Notes under the pieces: generated by a model
What the model was told of the DNA's origin: nothing
The model's input: the letters and a program-made list of their open reading frames with translations, nothing else
The model's database searches: none
Shown: piece by piece, positions 17,438 to 29,587 of the stretch
Numbering within the stretch: position 1 is the stretch's first letter
Layout: each line of letters starts with the position of its first letter
Source: a virus
Reading direction: 5' to 3' (one strand)
IMG/VR virus record: IMGVR_UViG_3300025133_000448
Location: 1 to 29,770 of that record
DNA length: 29,770 bases
Position numbers and translations under genes: made by a program

Positions 17438-18745
17438 ATGGCTAAGCAAACCGATGCGGTGGACGACTTCACCTCTGACCTCATTAAGTCCCTCAACAAA
17501 GAAGCTGGCTCAAAGGTTGCTTTCAACCTGGCCGAGGACGAATCTCCAACACACGTAAAGCGTTGGATCTCGTCAGGAAGCCGCTTGCTTGATTGGATTG
17601 TTGCCAACAAGGTTGAGGGAGGCTATCCCGAAGGTCGAATTGTCGAAATCTTCGGCGATCCTGGCATTGGAAAGTCACATATCGCTGCGCAGATTTGTCG
17701 GTCAGCACAGAAGATGGGCGGTCTTGCTGTCTACATTGACACTGAGAATGCTACCAGCCCTGAAAACCTTGATCAGCTGGGCGTTCGAATTGACCGACAG
17801 TTCGTCTATGTCTCGGAGCATTGCACAGAGAATGTGCTGAGTTACGCTGAGAAGACGATGATCAAGGCGCGAGCTCTCATGGGCAGCGGAAAGGATATCC
17901 CAGTTGTCATCATCTGGGACTCTGTTGCTGCGACGTCTCCCAAGGCAGAGCTCGACGGCGAATACGACCAGAACTCCATCGGGCTTCAGGCTCGAACCAT
18001 CTCAAAGGGAATGCGAAAGATCACTGGAATTGTCGGTGATAACAACGTTCTTCTCGTTTGCCTCAATCAGACACGAACAAAGATTGGCGTCATGTACGGC
18101 GACCCGACCACAACATCGGGCGGAAAGGCGATTCCATTCCACAGCTCAGTCCGCATTCAGCTCTTTGGTGGGAATCACATCAAGAACGATTTGGGCGAGA
18201 TCATTGGAATCCACGTGAAGGCCAAGACGATCAAGAACAAGGTGGCAATGCCCTTCAGGCGCGCCGAGTTTGAGATTCATTTTGGCTATGGGATCAAGGA
18301 GTCAACGCAAATCTTCGAGCTCATGAAGGAATACGGTCCGACGCTTATCGGTGACAAGATCGTAGGTATTGGCAACTTCGCGGGGGACGGTCATCGTAAA
18401 ATGATTGTTCTTCCGACTGCCAACGGAGAATTCAGTCTCGACGACTTTGAGTTCAATAAGAAGAAGAATCGCTTCAAGTGGCCGACGAAGGGCAATTTCC
18501 AGAAGAAGAAGATGGCTGAGCAGGCTCTAATTCACAAAAGCTTCTATCTGAAGGCTTTCGAGGATCTGCTCGAGGATCCCGATGTCAAGGATTACCTCGA
18601 CGCACTGCTAGCCAAAATCATGACTCGCACATCTAAGAAGCGATTCGACGAAGACTCGGACATCAATCCTGAGTCCTATGTAGAGATGCAAGCGCTCGCG
18701 GCTGAGATCGAAGAAGGTCTTGGTGATTTGAGCGACCTGGAGTAG
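17438..18745 (+). CDS. uvsX: RecA/UvsX-family recombinase
   Basis: The product is 435 residues. The Walker A motif is GDPGIGKS (residues 73-80) after the typical GGYPEGRIVEIFG lead-in. The MAW-like region follows as DTENATSP, then VVIIWDSVAATSPKAELDG (Walker B with IWDS), and LVCLNQTRTKIG with GGKAIPFHSS corresponds to the L2 and core region. It would form filaments on ssDNA, with the SSB from the preceding gene, and drive strand exchange and recombination-dependent replication. The C-terminal 130 residues carry a lysine-rich part (EFNKKKNRFKWPTKGNFQKKK) and an acidic tail (EIEEGLGDLSDLE). The ancestral downstream start (ATG 18748) lies 3 nt after the stop, now belonging to a gene remnant. 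Confidence 0.9.
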   Translation: MAKQTDAVDDFTSDLIKSLNKEAGSKVAFNLAEDESPTHVKRWISSGSRLLDWIVANKVEGGYPEGRIVEIFGDPGIGKSHIAAQICRSAQKMGGLAVYIDTENATSPENLDQLGVRIDRQFVYVSEHCTENVLSYAEKTMIKARALMGSGKDIPVVIIWDSVAATSPKAELDGEYDQNSIGLQARTISKGMRKITGIVGDNNVLLVCLNQTRTKIGVMYGDPTTTSGGKAIPFHSSVRIQLFGGNHIKNDLGEIIGIHVKAKTIKNKVAMPFRRAEFEIHFGYGIKESTQIFELMKEYGPTLIGDKIVGIGNFAGDGHRKMIVLPTANGEFSLDDFEFNKKKNRFKWPTKGNFQKKKMAEQALIHKSFYLKAFEDLLEDPDVKDYLDALLAKIMTRTSKKRFDEDSDINPESYVEMQALAAEIEEGLGDLSDLE

Positions 18746-18747
18746 TA

Positions 18748-18827
18748 ATGCAGAGCTCGGCGCCCATTCTTATCGTCGACGTTTCGTCAGTCACTTTGTA
18801 GCTGGTCTGCCTACCTACTCTCGATGA
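18748..18827 (+). pseudogene. Broken 5' end of a 5'-nuclease gene (remnant left of a homing endonuclease)
   Basis: ATG 18748, 3 nt after uvsX, encodes MQSSAPILIVD, of which SSAPILIVD is identical to the N-terminus of the intact nuclease gene 0.9 kb downstream. The frame then breaks. From 18783, two bases out of step, it reads FVSHFVAGLPTYSR and stops, which parallels FTRHFIA of the intact protein (F..HF.A shared). Relative to the intact gene about 10 nt are missing at the ALNL codons. It is the start of a second, diverged copy of the same gene, inactivated by a small deletion and cut off by the endonuclease gene whose ATG (18824) overlaps its last codons. Confidence 0.75.
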
Positions 18828-19690
18828 GTCGGGCACACAACTACAAGCATCTCTCGGCAGAGGCTTTGTCCTCTGCTGTTGCTGCGTTCAGAGACGGTTC
18901 GACAATCGACGAAGTTCGAGAGTCTTGCGGTGTTGGACGAAACAAGATGATTCGCCTCCTCAAGGAGGCATTGGGCGAAGAGTACGAGTCTGTTGCAAAG
19001 CAGACACGCATTCGTCGATCCGCCCGCGAGGCACATCGAGCAAACACGGGACGAAAGAGAGGCCCGATGCCGATGTCTCAGCGACAGGCAATCTCCCAAG
19101 CGAAGATGGGTAAGTCTCTGTCTGATGAGCATCGACAGAGTATTTCTGAGGGACTTCATCGACATATTGCAGACAATGGGTTCTGGCACGACAAGGCGAC
19201 GTGCCTCGAGATTGGCAGAAAGTCTCGCGATACGAAGCGACAGCAAGGCCTCTACGAAGAGTTCGGCAGAAAGATCAGCCAGCGATGGGCCGAGGGATGC
19301 TATGAGAATCTCTACGGGAGTGGGCTGTGGCGTTCCAAGATCGAGGAGAGAGTCGAAGAGGTACTCTCAGATGTGTACGAGGTAGAAGGATCACATCGAC
19401 TTGCTGTCGAAGGACGCCGCTACTGCTTTGACATCCTGCTGGTCGAGCACCTCCTTCTCATCGAGATCAACGGCGACTACTGGCATTGTAACCCTTCGAA
19501 GTACGATGCTGAGTTTTTTCATCCTCATCGGAAGCTGAACTCCAAGGCCATCTGGGAGTATGATTCACTGAAGGCTGCTGATGCCCAGGTCGCAGGGTTC
19601 AACACTCTCACACTCTGGGAAGAGGATGTGAATCGATGGACGGACAACGAGATTCTCGAGGCAGTCAAGTGTCATCTGCACCAATCCTGA
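18824..19690 (+). CDS. Vsr-like (EDxHD-type) homing endonuclease, free-standing
   Basis: The product is 288 residues. The N-terminal part is a helix-turn-helix-like segment (STIDEVRESCGVGRNKMIRLL). A NUMOD3-like linker follows (MSQRQAISQAKMGKSLSDEHR). The C-terminal catalytic domain contains RYCFDILL, LLLIEINGDYWHCNPSKYD and TLTLWEEDV, the pattern of Vsr/PD-(D/E)xK-like EDxHD homing nucleases such as I-Bth0305I and those described beside fractured phage genes. It sits between uvsX and the 5'-nuclease gene and overlaps the restored start of the latter by about 20 nt. There is no room for an intron ribozyme on either side. The RBS is poor, so expression may be low. It would cut unoccupied alleles and spread by repair. 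Confidence 0.82.
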   Translation: MSRAHNYKHLSAEALSSAVAAFRDGSTIDEVRESCGVGRNKMIRLLKEALGEEYESVAKQTRIRRSAREAHRANTGRKRGPMPMSQRQAISQAKMGKSLSDEHRQSISEGLHRHIADNGFWHDKATCLEIGRKSRDTKRQQGLYEEFGRKISQRWAEGCYENLYGSGLWRSKIEERVEEVLSDVYEVEGSHRLAVEGRRYCFDILLVEHLLLIEINGDYWHCNPSKYDAEFFHPHRKLNSKAIWEYDSLKAADAQVAGFNTLTLWEEDVNRWTDNEILEAVKCHLHQS

Positions 19691-20643
19691 TTGTTGATGC
19701 ACTAAACTTGTTTACGCGACATTTCATTGCGAACCCTGCAATGGTGTCTACGGGTTATCGCGCAGGCGAGCCCGCGGGCGGCATTGTAGGGTTTTTGAAC
19801 TCTCTGAGATGGCTGATTGATACTCAGCATCCCAGCAGAGTTGTTGTTGTATGGGAGTCTGGGGGTTCGGCACGCAAGCGGAATCTGTTCAAAGAGTACA
19901 AAGCTCATCGACGGCCCCAAAAGCTCAATCGATACTACGAAGACGACATCCCGGATACTACCGAGAATCGAAATTGGCAAGTTGCAACGATTGTGGCACT
20001 TCTTCGATTCGTAGGCATCAATCAGGTCTATGTTCAGGACTGTGAAGCGGATGATGTCATTGGCTACATCTGTCGATACAAGTTTCCTGGACGACGAAAG
20101 GTAATTCTCTCGTCAGACAAAGACTTCTATCAGCTCCTGGACAAGGACACGCGTGTCTACAACCCTATGGGAAAGCGTTACGTGCTACCCGAGGATGTTT
20201 TTGAGCGCTTCGGAATCAAGCCACACAACTTTTGCACTGCCAAGGCACTGTGTGGTGACCCATCTGACAATATTCCGGGAATCAAAGGGGTCGGCTTTAA
20301 GACGCTTGCCAAGCGATTTCCGCAACTCGCGTCAGAAGATGATGTCTCTGTTCGCGACATCATTGCAGACGCCCAGAGCCGAATCGATCCCAAGGGAAAG
20401 GGTCCCAAGATCTACCAGCGCATTGTCGACGGAGAAGAGATTCTTCTTCGCAATTGGAAGCTGATGTATCTTGATACTCAAAACCTGTCGGGAAATCAGA
20501 TTAAGCGCATTGAGCACGCAATTGATAATTTCAGCCCTGTGCGCGATAAGATGGGCCTCATGAGGAAGCTGGTGAAGGAGGGCATCTCCTCCTTCGATGC
20601 TGATCGCTTTTTCACAGTCTGCAGGACCTACCTCAGAGACTAA
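19669..20643 (+). CDS. FEN-type 5'-3' exonuclease / flap nuclease (T4 RNase H-like)
   Basis: GTG 19669 gives 324 residues. It has GAGG 7 nt upstream and yields MSSAPILIVD, the same N-terminus as the broken copy at 18748; ATG 19636, inside the endonuclease gene, is an alternative. Conserved elements are ILIVDALN, VVVVWESGG with KRNLFKEYKAHR, DCEADDVIGYI, ILSSDKDFYQLL and the helix-3-turn-helix GDPSDNIPGIKGVG. The acidic metal-binding set is therefore in place. It would remove RNA primers and flaps, supplying the 5' nuclease absent from the short polymerase. Its first codons are carried inside the 3' end of the homing endonuclease gene. It is followed 15 nt later by the helicase gene. Confidence 0.88.
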   Translation: MSSAPILIVDALNLFTRHFIANPAMVSTGYRAGEPAGGIVGFLNSLRWLIDTQHPSRVVVVWESGGSARKRNLFKEYKAHRRPQKLNRYYEDDIPDTTENRNWQVATIVALLRFVGINQVYVQDCEADDVIGYICRYKFPGRRKVILSSDKDFYQLLDKDTRVYNPMGKRYVLPEDVFERFGIKPHNFCTAKALCGDPSDNIPGIKGVGFKTLAKRFPQLASEDDVSVRDIIADAQSRIDPKGKGPKIYQRIVDGEEILLRNWKLMYLDTQNLSGNQIKRIEHAIDNFSPVRDKMGLMRKLVKEGISSFDADRFFTVCRTYLRD

Positions 20644-20658: not shown

Positions 20659-22065
20659 ATGACCGACACACCTGGTCAGGGCACAGTTGTCCCTCACTTC
20701 AACAGGTACGATAAGCCCTTTCAGGAGAAGATCCTTCAGGCTCTACTGACTGACCGCGACTGGTCAGCTCAAATGGTCGAAGTGATGACTCCAGAGTACT
20801 TTGAGCTCAAGTATCTACACTTCCTGACCGAAAAGTACTTCGAGCACTTTCAGCGTCACCGGACATTCCCGTCCATCTCGCTCATTGCGGCGATGGTCAA
20901 GGATGAGCTCCGCGGAACCGATGAGCGAATTCTCAAGCAGCAGATCGTTGAGTATCTTCATCGCATCAAGTTCACGCCGGCACTTCAAGATCTTGCGGAG
21001 GTAAAGGATAGGACCATTGAGTTCTGTCGAAAGCAGGCGATGAAGGAGGCACTCACGCAGTGTGTGGATCTCATTGAGGAGGGAAAGAACGAGCAGGTCA
21101 CGGAGGTCATGAAGACTGCGCTTTCTGTGGGCGTTCCCACCTCTACAGGGCACGATTTCTTCGAAGACTTCGAAGCTCGGTTCGCGGCACAAACTCGAGT
21201 ACCTTGTCCGACGGGAATCCCACAGCTTGACCGAGAAGATGTTTTGGCGGGAGGTCTAGCTCGAGGAGAGCTGGGTGTCATTACTGCTAATACTGGTGTC
21301 GGCAAGTCTCACATGCTTGTCAATTTCGGAGCTCACGCACTTCGACAGGGCAAGAACGTACTCCACTACACGTTTGAGCTTTCAGAAACAAAAGTTGGAC
21401 TTCGCTACGACTCCAATCTGTGTGACATTCCAAGCAACGAAGTGATTGTGAACAAGGAAACTGTTCGCAAGGCTTATGAAGGGATGGAACTGGGCCGGCT
21501 CATCATCAAGGAGTACCCGACTGGATCAGCGTCAGTTGTCACTTTGCGCTCTCACATTGAGAAGCTGCAAATGAAGGGTTTCAAGCCGTCCCTCATACTT
21601 ATCGATTACGCGGACATCATGCGGTCCACGCGAAGCTACGATTCAATGAGGCACGAGCTCAAGCTGATCTACGTTGAAGTCCGAAACCTTTCGCAAGAGC
21701 TTGGTGTCCCCATCTGGACTGCTAGTCAGGCCAACCGGGATTCTGCAAACTCTGAGATTGTGGGTCTTGAGAACATGGCTGAGGCGTATGGCAAGGCCAT
21801 GGTCGCCGATGTTGTCATCTCGATCTCTCGAAAGGCGTCCGAGAAGGCAACTGGCTTCGGTCGACTGTTCGTTGCTAAGAATCGTGCTGGTCGAGACGGC
21901 TTGCTCTTTCACATCAAGTTGGATACTGCACGGTCGAAGGTGACTGCTGCAGATCCAGATGAGGAGCAGACGTTTGCTGAGGCAGCGGTGCAAGACGAGG
22001 CATACAAAAAGACTCGTCTGACTGAGGCCTACAATGAACTCAAGGCTGAAATCGCGGCTAAGTGA
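20659..22065 (+). CDS. Replicative DNA helicase, DnaB / T4 gp41 family
   Basis: The product is 468 residues with an AGAGGAAAG ribosome binding site. The N-terminal domain (about residues 1-170) is helical, as in DnaB-type helicases. The RecA-like core has Walker A ITANTGVGKSHM, Walker B LILIDYADIM, and the PIWTASQANRD block with its sensor residues. Later blocks include GKAMVADVVISISRK and GRLFVAKNRAGRDG, where the arginine-finger region of the family lies. It would form a hexamer on the lagging strand and unwind the fork. The gene is uninterrupted, although gp41 genes of related phages are known to carry inteins at conserved sites. No primase gene is seen in the window. Confidence 0.88.
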   Translation: MTDTPGQGTVVPHFNRYDKPFQEKILQALLTDRDWSAQMVEVMTPEYFELKYLHFLTEKYFEHFQRHRTFPSISLIAAMVKDELRGTDERILKQQIVEYLHRIKFTPALQDLAEVKDRTIEFCRKQAMKEALTQCVDLIEEGKNEQVTEVMKTALSVGVPTSTGHDFFEDFEARFAAQTRVPCPTGIPQLDREDVLAGGLARGELGVITANTGVGKSHMLVNFGAHALRQGKNVLHYTFELSETKVGLRYDSNLCDIPSNEVIVNKETVRKAYEGMELGRLIIKEYPTGSASVVTLRSHIEKLQMKGFKPSLILIDYADIMRSTRSYDSMRHELKLIYVEVRNLSQELGVPIWTASQANRDSANSEIVGLENMAEAYGKAMVADVVISISRKASEKATGFGRLFVAKNRAGRDGLLFHIKLDTARSKVTAADPDEEQTFAEAAVQDEAYKKTRLTEAYNELKAEIAAK

Positions 22066-22127: not shown

Positions 22128-25100
22128 ATGGCGACATTGCAAGAAGTGACAGCAGCGTCACTCGACTATTTCAACGGCGACAAGCTCGCGGCAAACGTTT
22201 TTGCGACAAAGTATCCGTTGATGTCACCAGACGGCGACATTCTAGAAGTGACGCCCGATGATATGCATCGCCGGATGGCTCGGGAGTTTGCGCGAGTTGA
22301 GTCAAAGTACGCCAATCCCATGTCGGAAGATGACATCTACGAGCTCCTAAAGGACTTCAGATACGTTATCCCTCAGGGCTCTCCCATGTCTGGGATCGGG
22401 AACTCCCACCAGATTCAGTCATTGTCAAACTGCTTTGTCGTCGAGTCGCCCTATGACTCGTATGGCGGCATTATGAAGACTGATCAAGAGCTGGTTCAGA
22501 TCATGAAGCGGAGAGGTGGAGTCGGGACCGATGTCTCTTCACTCCGCCCCGAAGGGATGGGCACTAGCAATGCTGCCAAGACCTCTACCGGCATCGTGTC
22601 CTTTATGGGTCGCTACTCGAACACAACTCGAGAAGTAGCACAGAACGGCCGGCGAGGGGCGCTGATGATCTCAGTGTCCATTCATCACCCGCAGATTCTG
22701 GACTTCATTCGGTCCAAGCGCAACCGAGATAAGGTCACGGGTGCCAACATCTCTATTCGTCTTACAGACGAGTTCATGGAGGCTGTGCTCGCCGACGAGG
22801 ACTACGAAGTCCGATTCCCAGTTGACAGTGACACGCCTCTGGTTTCCCAGCGTGTTAGTGCAAAGGAGATCTGGGACGAGATTGTTGAGTCAGCTCACCA
22901 GTACGCTGAGCCCGGACTGCTGTTCTGGGACAATGTCACTAAGTACTCACCTGCTGACATTTACGCCGATCTGGGGTTTAAGACAATCTCGACGAATCCT
23001 TGCGTGACAGGCGACACGCTCATCGCTGTTGCCGATGGTCGAAACGCTGTACCCATTTCACAGCTTGCCGCCGAAGGAGTTGATGTTCCTGTCTACTCTG
23101 TTGATCCGAAGTCCGGAAAGACTGTTATCAAGATGGGACGAAATCCTCGAGCAACCAAGACAAATCAGCCGATTTGGAAGGTCACTCTCGACGATGGCTC
23201 AGTGCTTCGAGGGACGTATGATCACCGAATCCTGGTGAAGACTTCGAACGGCCGAGAATACGTTGAGCTCTACAAGTTGCAACCAGACGACAGCATTGTG
23301 CCGTTTAACTCGTTCAACTCAAACGGTTATCGGCAGGTCTGCAACACGGGAGCACCTCTCAAGGGAGAGGGCTTCAGGAATCGTCGTCAGTATCGACTAG
23401 TTCACGAATTCTATGAAGGTGAAACTAACGCAAAGACTCACGCGATTCATCACCGGAATTTTGACAGTCTCAATGACTCGATTGACAACCTGGAGATCAT
23501 GTTGCACGAGGATCATCGAGCACTCCATGCAGATCGGATTCGCGGTGATCAAAATCCGTATCACCAGATGTCGAATGAGTGGAAAGAATCATTTGCTTCT
23601 CACTCTGGAGAGACCAATGGTCACTACAGTGGGCTTACGAATGAGGAGCTGATTTCTCTTGGGCGAGACGTCTATGCTCGAGAGGGCCGATTCACAAAGT
23701 GCCTCTGGGCCGACGCAGCAAAGTCTTCGGGCGCTCCGATTCATGTCGCAAACGACTTTCGATTCGGATCTTTCTCGAACTTCAAGAGTAGTGTGATCGG
23801 AAACCACAAGGTTGTCTCAGTAGAACACACAATGGAGCGAGAGGATGTCTATAACATCACAGTCGATGACAACCATAACTACTGTGTAATTACATCAACT
23901 GAGGATGATCGGTTCGTCAAGTCCTCGGGTATCTGCATCAAGAATTGCGGAGAAATTCCACTCTGCGCATACGATTCGTGTCGTTTGATGGTCATCAATT
24001 TGCTGTCGTTTGTGCGAAATCCTTTCACGGATTTGAGTGCTTTCGATTTTAATGCCTTTTCGCTTGTTGTTCAGCAGGCCCAGCGGTTGATGGATGACCT
24101 TATCGATCTTGAGCTCGAGCAGGTTGAAAAGATCATTGCCAAGATCGAGGCTGATCCTGAGCCAGACGATGTCAAGCAGGCAGAGCTCGACCTCTGGTGC
24201 AAGATTCGTGAGAAGGCTGTCAATGGTCGCCGGACAGGCCTGGGTGTAACAGCTGTTGGTGACATGCTGGCAGCACTGGGAATTCGTTACGGCTCTGACG
24301 AGAGCATCGACTTTGTCGAGCAGGTCTATAAAAATCTCAATCTGAATGCTTACCGGTCGTCATGCCAACTTGCTAAGGAGCGGGGAGCGTTCCCGATCTT
24401 TGACTTTGAACGTGAGCAAGGTCACCCATTCATGGAGCGTATCTGGGAGGCAAATCCCGAGCTTCGCGAGATGATGCGCGAATTTGGCCGACGGAACATC
24501 GCACTTCTCACTACTGCACCAGCAGGGTCGGTGAGCTTGATGACCAAGTCGGTGGGTGATTACTTTGGTGTCACTTCGGGTATTGAGCAGTCGACATATT
24601 TGAAGCTCACACGACGCAAGAAGATCATGCCAGGTGAAGATGTCCCTGTCGACTTCATTGACCAGAACGGTGATAAGTGGACTGAGTTCGATGTCTCTCA
24701 CGCAGGATTCAAGGCTTGGGCCGAGATTACTGGGAACAGCACTGATGACGTGGAGAAGAGCCCTTATTGCGGCGCAACTATCGATGACGTTGATTGGGTT
24801 GCTAAGGTCAAGATGCAGGCAGCAGCACAGAAGTGGGTCTGTCACGCCATCTCAAACACTACAAACTTGCCTGAAGATGTCTCTCGAGAGGTTGTCTCGC
24901 AAGTCTACTTGGCCGGCTGGCAGTCGGGATGCAAGGGTGTCACTGTCTACCGAGAGGGTTCACGGACGGGAGTCATTGTCAAGGAGTCCGCAGCTACACC
25001 CGAGGACGTTCACGTTCCGCATTCTGCTGTCAAGCGCCCCGAAGAGCTCCCGTGCGAGATCCATCAAGTCTCCATCAAGGGTGAGAAGTGGACTATTCTC

Positions 25101-25565
25101 GTGGGTATGATGTCTGGACTTCCGTACGAAGTCATGGGCGGACTCTCTGAGATGATTGAGATTCCACGCAAGTACAAGCAAGGAACGCTGATCAAGCGAG
25201 CTCGAAAGACGATGCCATCGATTTACGATCTCAAGGTGGGAGAGAACGGAGACGAGTTCAAGATCAAGGACATCGTCGACGCCTTCGACAATCCAGAGCA
25301 CTCCACGCACACTCGCCTGCTGTCGCTTGGGTTGCGCCACGGCGCCAGCGTCAATTATGTTGCTGAGCAGCTTCACAAGGGCGACAAGGAATCTGATCTC
25401 TTCAGCTTCTCCAAGGTTCTTGCTCGCGTGCTCAAGAAGTACATTGATGACGGAACAAAGCCTGGCGGGTCAGCTAACTGTCCCGACTGTGGAGCTGAAG
25501 ATTCAATGCGCTACACCGAAGGCTGCGTTGCTTGTCTGTCATGTGGCAGCAGTAAGTGTTCATGA
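22128..25565 (+). CDS. nrdJ: Class II (cobalamin-dependent) ribonucleotide reductase, interrupted by an intein
   Basis: The precursor is 1145 residues; without the intein (residues 292-606) the enzyme is 830. The reductase barrel shows SNCFVVESPYDSYGGIM, RRGGVGTDVSSLRP and NTTREVAQNGRRGALMISV. The active-site loop NP-CGEIPL is split by the intein immediately before the Cys expected to carry the thiyl radical. LLTTAPAGSVSLM and the YCGATIDDVDW region follow. The C-terminus has a TSCPD-like domain (CEIHQVSIKGEKWTILVGMM) and a Cys-rich end (CPDCG, CVACLSCGSSKC) typical of NrdJ. It reduces ribonucleotides using adenosylcobalamin, needs no NrdB partner, and is followed by a thioredoxin gene, its likely reductant. 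The RBS is GGAGAGG. Confidence 0.92.
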   Translation: MATLQEVTAASLDYFNGDKLAANVFATKYPLMSPDGDILEVTPDDMHRRMAREFARVESKYANPMSEDDIYELLKDFRYVIPQGSPMSGIGNSHQIQSLSNCFVVESPYDSYGGIMKTDQELVQIMKRRGGVGTDVSSLRPEGMGTSNAAKTSTGIVSFMGRYSNTTREVAQNGRRGALMISVSIHHPQILDFIRSKRNRDKVTGANISIRLTDEFMEAVLADEDYEVRFPVDSDTPLVSQRVSAKEIWDEIVESAHQYAEPGLLFWDNVTKYSPADIYADLGFKTISTNPCVTGDTLIAVADGRNAVPISQLAAEGVDVPVYSVDPKSGKTVIKMGRNPRATKTNQPIWKVTLDDGSVLRGTYDHRILVKTSNGREYVELYKLQPDDSIVPFNSFNSNGYRQVCNTGAPLKGEGFRNRRQYRLVHEFYEGETNAKTHAIHHRNFDSLNDSIDNLEIMLHEDHRALHADRIRGDQNPYHQMSNEWKESFASHSGETNGHYSGLTNEELISLGRDVYAREGRFTKCLWADAAKSSGAPIHVANDFRFGSFSNFKSSVIGNHKVVSVEHTMEREDVYNITVDDNHNYCVITSTEDDRFVKSSGICIKNCGEIPLCAYDSCRLMVINLLSFVRNPFTDLSAFDFNAFSLVVQQAQRLMDDLIDLELEQVEKIIAKIEADPEPDDVKQAELDLWCKIREKAVNGRRTGLGVTAVGDMLAALGIRYGSDESIDFVEQVYKNLNLNAYRSSCQLAKERGAFPIFDFEREQGHPFMERIWEANPELREMMREFGRRNIALLTTAPAGSVSLMTKSVGDYFGVTSGIEQSTYLKLTRRKKIMPGEDVPVDFIDQNGDKWTEFDVSHAGFKAWAEITGNSTDDVEKSPYCGATIDDVDWVAKVKMQAAAQKWVCHAISNTTNLPEDVSREVVSQVYLAGWQSGCKGVTVYREGSRTGVIVKESAATPEDVHVPHSAVKRPEELPCEIHQVSIKGEKWTILVGMMSGLPYEVMGGLSEMIEIPRKYKQGTLIKRARKTMPSIYDLKVGENGDEFKIKDIVDAFDNPEHSTHTRLLSLGLRHGASVNYVAEQLHKGDKESDLFSFSKVLARVLKKYIDDGTKPGGSANCPDCGAEDSMRYTEGCVACLSCGSSKCS
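23001..23945 (+). mobile_element. Intein with HNH homing endonuclease in nrdJ
   Basis: The 315-residue in-frame insertion begins with Cys (CVTGDTLIAVADG, block A). Block B is RGTYDHRILVKT with the T-x-x-H pattern, block F is VYNITVDDNHNYCVI, and it ends SSGICIKN directly before the extein Cys (block G, terminal Asn). The residue before the terminal Asn is Lys rather than the common His. Between blocks B and F lies an HNH nuclease (AIHHRNFDSLNDSIDNLEIM, then EDHRALH; precursor residues about 440-470). The remaining residues up to block F probably bind DNA. The insertion point is the NP-CGE active-site loop, a classic choice that cannot be lost imprecisely without killing the enzyme. Confidence 0.9.
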
Positions 25566-28963: not shown

Positions 28964-29587
28964 ATGAAGCATGTCATTTATTTGACAACGAATTTGGCCA
29001 ATGGAAAGAAGTACATCGGTCGTTGTTCAAAGATGGATCGATGGGAGGCTGGGTACTTAGGCTCTGGTACCCTCCTCAAGAAGGCAATTAAAAAGTACGG
29101 AAGAGATTCTTTTGAGAGAGAGATTCTCGAAGTTGTTGAAGGTTCTCTTCGAGAAGCTATCGATTCTGAGTGTGCCTGGCTTGCTAAAATGAACGTTGTT
29201 GAGGATTCTACGTTCTACAATATGTCCAGCAATACAGGTGGCTTCGGTGTCGGAGATACTCACAGTGTCGAGACTAAGAAAAGACTATCAGATGCCATGA
29301 AGCATTATGCTATCGACGGTTTGCCATTGTCGCATCGTGAAAATGTTGTCAATGCTCTTAAAGGTCGAACACCCTGGAACAAGGGATATCGAATGACTGT
29401 GGCTGAAAAGCAAGAGCTTCGCTTAAAGCGACGAAAGGGCATCAAACTGTCGATATCTGACGTTGAAGACATTAGAGAGCGATACGATTCGGGTGAATCG
29501 GCATCTCGTATTGCAGCAAGCTATAACGCGTCACATCACACGATTTTGAAGGTCGTGAGAAAAATAGGAAAGTACAATGACATGTGA
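28964..29587 (+). CDS. GIY-YIG homing endonuclease, free-standing (Seg/I-Tev type)
   Basis: The product is 207 residues. The catalytic domain begins at once: HVIYLTTNLANGKKYIGR (GIY as VIY, YIG intact), then EAGYLGSGTLLKKAIKKYG and FEREILEVVEG, with a Glu in DSECAWL. DNA-binding modules follow: a NUMOD3-like segment (SVETKKRLSDAMKHYA, GRTPWNKGYR) and a C-terminal helix-turn-helix (SRIAASYNASHHTILKVVRKI). It lies between the remnant start and the intact body of an Fpg/Nei gene, whose start region begins 9 nt after this stop. No intron core fits in the 36 nt before or the 8 nt after it. Expression is probably late, through the hairpin upstream. Confidence 0.88.
   Translation: MKHVIYLTTNLANGKKYIGRCSKMDRWEAGYLGSGTLLKKAIKKYGRDSFEREILEVVEGSLREAIDSECAWLAKMNVVEDSTFYNMSSNTGGFGVGDTHSVETKKRLSDAMKHYAIDGLPLSHRENVVNALKGRTPWNKGYRMTVAEKQELRLKRRKGIKLSISDVEDIRERYDSGESASRIAASYNASHHTILKVVRKIGKYNDM

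Follow-up and report, generated by a model that had tools for sequence, protein, structure and literature searches.

A Vsr-like endonuclease gene in the start of a phage exonuclease gene, followed by a second start written in different codons

Free-standing phage endonucleases of the T4 SegF type mediate intronless homing, and the donor's target is resistant by sequence divergence. As in the locus described here, these endonucleases adjoin their target; they differ in that they sit between intact genes and leave no truncated native start, whereas our locus has one. Vsr-like enzymes are found in other settings: I-Bth0305I is encoded by an intron, and the "fractured gene" endonucleases lie between split inteins. 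Endonucleases of this Vsr-like (EDxHD) kind have the same catalytic fold as the enzyme of the window (the whole 29,770-nt stretch of viral DNA analyzed here), in which an intron or split inteins are absent.

In fungal mitochondria, mobile ORFs with replacement gene C termini have been described in Allomyces atp6 and in Glomus sp. atp6, atp9, cox2, and nad3; the two 3′ ends of the Glomus sp. atp6 gene are 63.5% identical in DNA, while the protein is nearly conserved (PMC3630166). There, as in the window, an endonuclease and a foreign gene end were inserted, the native end was kept as a remnant, and the DNA copies are strongly diverged. The fungal elements replace a 3′ end, encode LAGLIDADG or GIY-YIG enzymes, and reside in mitochondria, whereas the window element is Vsr-like, resides in a phage, and concerns a 5′ end, with the endonuclease gene and the new start overlapping. 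The hallmark of the fungal type, a retained native end together with a carried diverged copy, was thus found at the 5′ instead of the 3′ end, and by analogy the window can be read as a 5′ mirror image, in a phage, of the fungal mitochondrial mobile ORFs.

A homing endonuclease also lies upstream of T4 gene 60, where a 50-nt bypassed insert possibly protects against cleavage (PMC5009743). As in the window, a free-standing phage endonuclease sits beside an altered gene proposed to be cleavage-protected; gene 60 relies on the bypassed insert, whereas the window would rely on synonymous codons and would not need bypassing. HomeR home-and-rescue drives, which are synthetic, Cas9-based, and designed for insects, offer an analogy only: the drive cuts an essential gene and brings a recoded rescue (PMC7968924). 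Full-text searches of the literature available without subscription returned no described phage case.

Two starts of one exonuclease gene

Our evidence at the exonuclease gene comes from one locus on one metagenomic contig (Table 1). Past the uvsX stop codon (TAG, 18743-18745), an upstream frame opens as MQSSAPILIVDVSSVTL* and is broken off after the ninth codon that it shares with the intact gene. These shared codons encode the peptide SSAPILIVD as AGC TCG GCG CCC ATT CTT ATC GTC GAC (18754-18780), and the same peptide is encoded again downstream of the endonuclease ORF as TCA TCT GCA CCA ATC CTG ATT GTT GAT (19672-19698). All nine residues are identical, all nine codons differ, and 11 of the 27 nucleotides are changed; the sequence-only reading of this DNA had given the same counts, and they are exact to the base. 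It had also placed the intact start within the last endonuclease codons and proposed that the element carries its own replacement 5′ end. Our analysis supports both points: the endonuclease gene lies inside the native exonuclease start, with a complete new start at its 3′ end, where the frame from GTG 19669 runs (M) S S A P I L I V D A L N L F T R H F... and is overlapped by the last seven endonuclease codons, stop included. Since these seven codons lie inside the replacement start, the endonuclease gene and the replacement start are physically fused. To call the insertion "scarless", as that reading did, is too strong: a 54-nt remnant ORF of the native start stays behind, and its second residue (Gln) is missing from the replacement start.

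Table 1. Positions of the features discussed (window coordinates unless preceded by a locus name)
Feature	Position	Strand	Evidence or remark
uvsX/RecA-like recombinase gene, left flank (homology arm)	17438..18745	+	Pfam RecA 1.4e-61, PHROG UvsX 3.2e-65
Truncated native exonuclease start, MQSSAPILIVD then VSSVTL*	18748..18801	+	sequence; canonical place, 2 nt after the uvsX stop
Free-standing homing endonuclease; predicted Vsr-like/EDxHD catalytic domain (about 170-288) preceded by a helical region that putatively binds DNA	18824..19690	+	profile, Foldseek, AF2
Shine-Dalgarno-like GAGG for the restarted exonuclease, within the endonuclease gene	19658..19661	+	7-nt spacer to GTG 19669
Replacement exonuclease start, GTG + SSAPILIVD	19669..19698	+	overlaps the endonuclease 3′ end and includes its TGA; 9/9 codons unlike the native copy
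Intact 5′-3′ exonuclease gene	19669..20643	+	Pfam 5_3_exonuc_N 6.8e-30; conserved uvsX-exo-dnaB order
DnaB-like helicase gene, conserved right flank	20659..22065	+	Pfam DnaB_C 4e-21
Bypass-like loci at the glycosyltransferase start	L144:3461-3545, L088:3352-3415, L106:3515-3595, L243, L195, L262, L103, L247, L213, L254-L271

Which of the two starts is native was judged from exonuclease relatives. Scanned at the protein level with the exonuclease, IMG/VR yielded 80 loci, and a second exonuclease query added a further set, in which we saw no further endonuclease at this uvsX-exonuclease site. The relatives keep the order uvsX-exo-dnaB, and an endonuclease of this kind is absent between their uvsX and exonuclease genes. 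In 70 of 73 distinct endonuclease-free relatives, the exonuclease start falls between -11 and +18 nt relative to the uvsX stop; one such junction (L032) reads 'gagtag t ATG caa TCT TCC' (MQSSTRPVILVDAYN). The three exceptions are L080 and L077, whose spacers of 1.0 kb and 3.7 kb, respectively, hold other genes, and one locus without a usable start. By its canonical place, at +2, the upstream fragment is identified as the native start; the intact gene has been displaced, to +923. From the DNA of the window alone, endonuclease-free relatives had been expected to have a single start just after uvsX that matches the upstream version. The single start near the uvsX stop was confirmed, and likeness of the upstream version to endonuclease-free starts was found in the glycosyltransferase loci described below. 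The closest exonuclease relative in the IMG/VR protein scan has 68% protein identity. Searches for a near-identical endonuclease-free allele gave nothing in two exact DNA scans, one 51% match in bacterial and archaeal genomes, and no match above 60% in the phage collection.

We then compared the codon differences with what might arise by chance. For two copies sampled independently according to the codon usage of the window, the probability that nine of nine codons differ is 0.025. Between exonuclease relatives, codons at identical residues differ in 46% of cases at 80-90% protein identity and in about 57-59% at lower identity, and these rates give probabilities of 0.002 and 0.012-0.02, respectively. 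An any-frame, generic repeat score was unremarkable (about 7% of random flank pairs scored equally high); the case for a doubled start stands because of the position and frame of the peptide, which forms the first codons after uvsX. A recent tandem duplication of the start was rejected on the 41% nucleotide difference between the copies. As far as these comparisons go, the protein appears to have been held while its DNA was replaced to an unusual extent, and the recoding is consistent with selection for cleavage resistance, short of proof.

The same pattern could be a scar of one-sided homing, in which an endonuclease lying in front of the exonuclease gene of a diverged donor phage was copied in from the right together with the donor's gene start, while the left end was joined illegitimately to the cut start of the recipient. 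Donor and recipient would then differ in their codons by ordinary divergence, and the remnant would be debris; the facts above would stand, and the claim of selected recoding would go. In favor of this reading, members of the endonuclease family are commonly found touching or overlapping a neighboring gene start where no remnant exists, full synonymous saturation leaves only a modest codon excess (P about 0.02, hence not impossible), and by eye the 43 nt that separate the remnant from the start of the endonuclease resemble neither copy. However, the variable residues SSAP are the same in both copies, and all nine residues are common only to relatives of at least 85% protein identity, in which no more than five of the nine codons differ (25 pairs below 99% identity). 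A remnant with a replacement start was also seen again in several glycosyltransferase loci. We consider such a scar unlikely, although it is the main rival to a selected replacement start.

A free-standing Vsr-like endonuclease

The endonuclease ORF lies outside the exonuclease frame and has its own start and stop. Pfam and NCBIfam gave it no usable name, generic family libraries being of little help, and a PDB search with the single sequence returned coiled-coil noise only. With a profile made from a 32-member alignment of fetched loci, we obtained PDB matches (E 0.003-0.007) to the catalytic domain of I-Bth0305I (3r3p), to the Vsr-like 3hrl, and to the DNA-binding part of I-TevI (1i3j). The AlphaFold2 model has a mean pLDDT of 81.8, mostly above 94 in the catalytic part, and its top two Foldseek matches were Vsr (1cw0, E 1.1e-3) and I-Bth0305I (3r3p, 2.6e-3); these E-values are modest, yet both matches have the same fold. 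On profile and model evidence, the protein is a Vsr-like homing endonuclease related to I-Bth0305I, with putative cleavage activity, and its N-terminal helical region presumably binds DNA.

Vsr-like endonucleases are known in group I introns (I-Bth0305I), and a group I or other self-splicing intron that joins 18780 to 19699, making the second SSAPILIVD intronic, would formally restore ...ILIVD|ALNLF. However, only about 40 nt belong to neither the endonuclease ORF nor one of the two starts, the downstream copy has a ribosome site and an in-frame start codon of its own, and Rfam gave no match to intron families around the endonuclease at the gathering threshold or even at E<=1; splicing here is very improbable. 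We also found no intein signal at the insertion and no RNA fold signal at the junction (z 0.05), and the T4 gene 60 type of bypass signature is absent from the window, as the junction is in frame without a stop. The endonuclease thus appears, from its sequence context, to be free-standing and neither intron- nor intein-encoded, in agreement with the earlier proposal of an insertion without intron or intein.

Other mobile elements were noticed along the way. In the window, a ribonucleotide reductase-like gene (22128-25565) has an apparent in-frame intein (CVTGDTLIAVADG...ICIKN) in its ORF translation, and a second homing endonuclease gene, of the GIY-YIG type (28964-29584; SegE_GIY-YIG 1.4e-7, NUMOD3, HTH), lies near the contig end. 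In L077 (4952-8124; the phage type of L321 and L322), a DnaB helicase gene is split, with intein-like halves on either side of a Vsr-like endonuclease ORF, an arrangement that resembles a "fractured gene".

Glycosyltransferase genes with the same layout

We searched for peptides encoded twice, on both sides of related Vsr-like endonucleases, and found a second target, a glycosyltransferase-like gene with the N-terminal motif KIKVLVVPSDRTGVSYFRS and a weak Glyco_trans_1_4 match. In four loci, L144, L088 (= L087), L103, and L106, a cut-off native start precedes a Vsr-like endonuclease gene, which is followed by a differently written second start. L132 is apparently a fifth occurrence of the layout with the endonuclease reversed: the endonuclease is antisense, and in the antisense reading the doubled start agrees at 15 of 15 residues, with 10 of 15 codons differing. 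In both DNA and protein, the upstream fragments of the four loci are nearer to 40 endonuclease-free starts than to 19 element-borne starts, and the latter have common leaders such as TPVSRK or NGRERIR. Between 3 and 10 of the 12-14 shared residues are recoded, and many codons are common to both copies, so complete recoding is no general rule. At the same glycosyltransferase gene, further members of the endonuclease family reach up to or into the gene start with no remnant beside them; L213, first grouped with the duplicated-start loci, was dropped when its native remnant proved absent. As read from their gene layout, these loci show that endonucleases of the window's family carry altered gene starts elsewhere.

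This recurrence also bears on the idea that the window, a single metagenomic contig, is a chimera assembled from two related phages, of which only one had the endonuclease. The same architecture appears on other contigs, GC3 is similar across the joint (0.55-0.61), and the junction of a chimera would have to fall exactly on the conserved catalytic codons, all of which make this origin improbable.

In the remnant-bearing glycosyltransferase loci, the gene does not simply continue in the frame of the replacement start. A stop follows right after GV(G/S), and a codon for the same amino acid, 2-10 nt in total further on, resumes the gene. Take-off and landing read AGC-TGAA-AGC (L144), AGC-TGACA-AGC (L106), GGT-TAACTAAA-GGT (L195), and, in many loci, GGC-TGA-GGT; L213 is the sole mismatch of take-off and landing. 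The take-off codon comes just after the end of a strong hairpin, whose z is -2.9 to -6.3 in nine loci and -1.4 in L195. RNAalifold gave no structure for these hairpins from ungapped input, and automatic alignment displaced the 5′ arm. The combination of hairpin, Gly/Ser take-off codon, stop, and landing codon was found at glycosyltransferase starts in about 20 distinct phage loci, in most of which a Vsr-like homing endonuclease gene lies immediately upstream, and it suggests that these replacement starts may use programmed translational bypassing similar to that of T4 gene 60. The putative bypassing at the glycosyltransferase gene is a separate discovery, perhaps larger than the finding in the window.

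In L144 (3693-5843) and L088 (3412-5751), the glycosyltransferase gene has an in-frame intein in addition to the 5′ endonuclease/bypass insertion. L195 (2905-3000) and L211 (2905-3005) have the same hairpin-stop-landing element, and no endonuclease was detected in the flank that was fetched; this looks like loss of the endonuclease with retention of the altered gene start. A bypass-like GGT-TGAATAAA-GGT also occurs at a related gene in L132 and L136, where the glycosyltransferase is on the minus strand.

A cassette that may carry its own rescue

Overall, our analyses favor, with a probability of about 0.7, a free-standing Vsr-like endonuclease cassette in the 5′ end of the exonuclease gene that carries a cleavage-proof replacement start. 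The insertion lies at the codons of the conserved catalytic motif (ILIVD|ALNLF). The mobile unit would comprise the endonuclease gene and the replacement start, which shares the last endonuclease codons with its ribosome site, its start codon, and its first codons. We infer cutting, homing, resistance, and expression of the cassette as follows. The enzyme would cut near the D|A codons of an exonuclease gene that has no insertion. Repair templated by the donor could then use uvsX together with the fragment of the native start as the left homology arm and the body of the exonuclease gene as the right one; the cassette would be copied in, and the exonuclease would be translated from the replacement start. 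The changed codons would make the rejoined site uncuttable and may also prevent loss of the cassette through recombination between the two starts.

More broadly, and with about even odds in our judgment, Vsr-like phage endonucleases may form a natural "cut-and-rescue" class that carries a cleavage-proof replacement start of the invaded gene, in which the rescue would come either from complete synonymous recoding, as in the exonuclease gene of the window, or from a hop across hairpin, stop, and landing codon, as in the glycosyltransferase loci.

Endonucleases without an intron or intein must spare both the function of the target gene and their own copy, and a recoded start would solve both problems. 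Such a cassette would account for the presence of a free-standing endonuclease in the most conserved codons of a gene that is needed, and the remnant would directly record where the cut probably falls. A recoded-start cassette of this kind would be the phage counterpart of a recoded-rescue gene drive.
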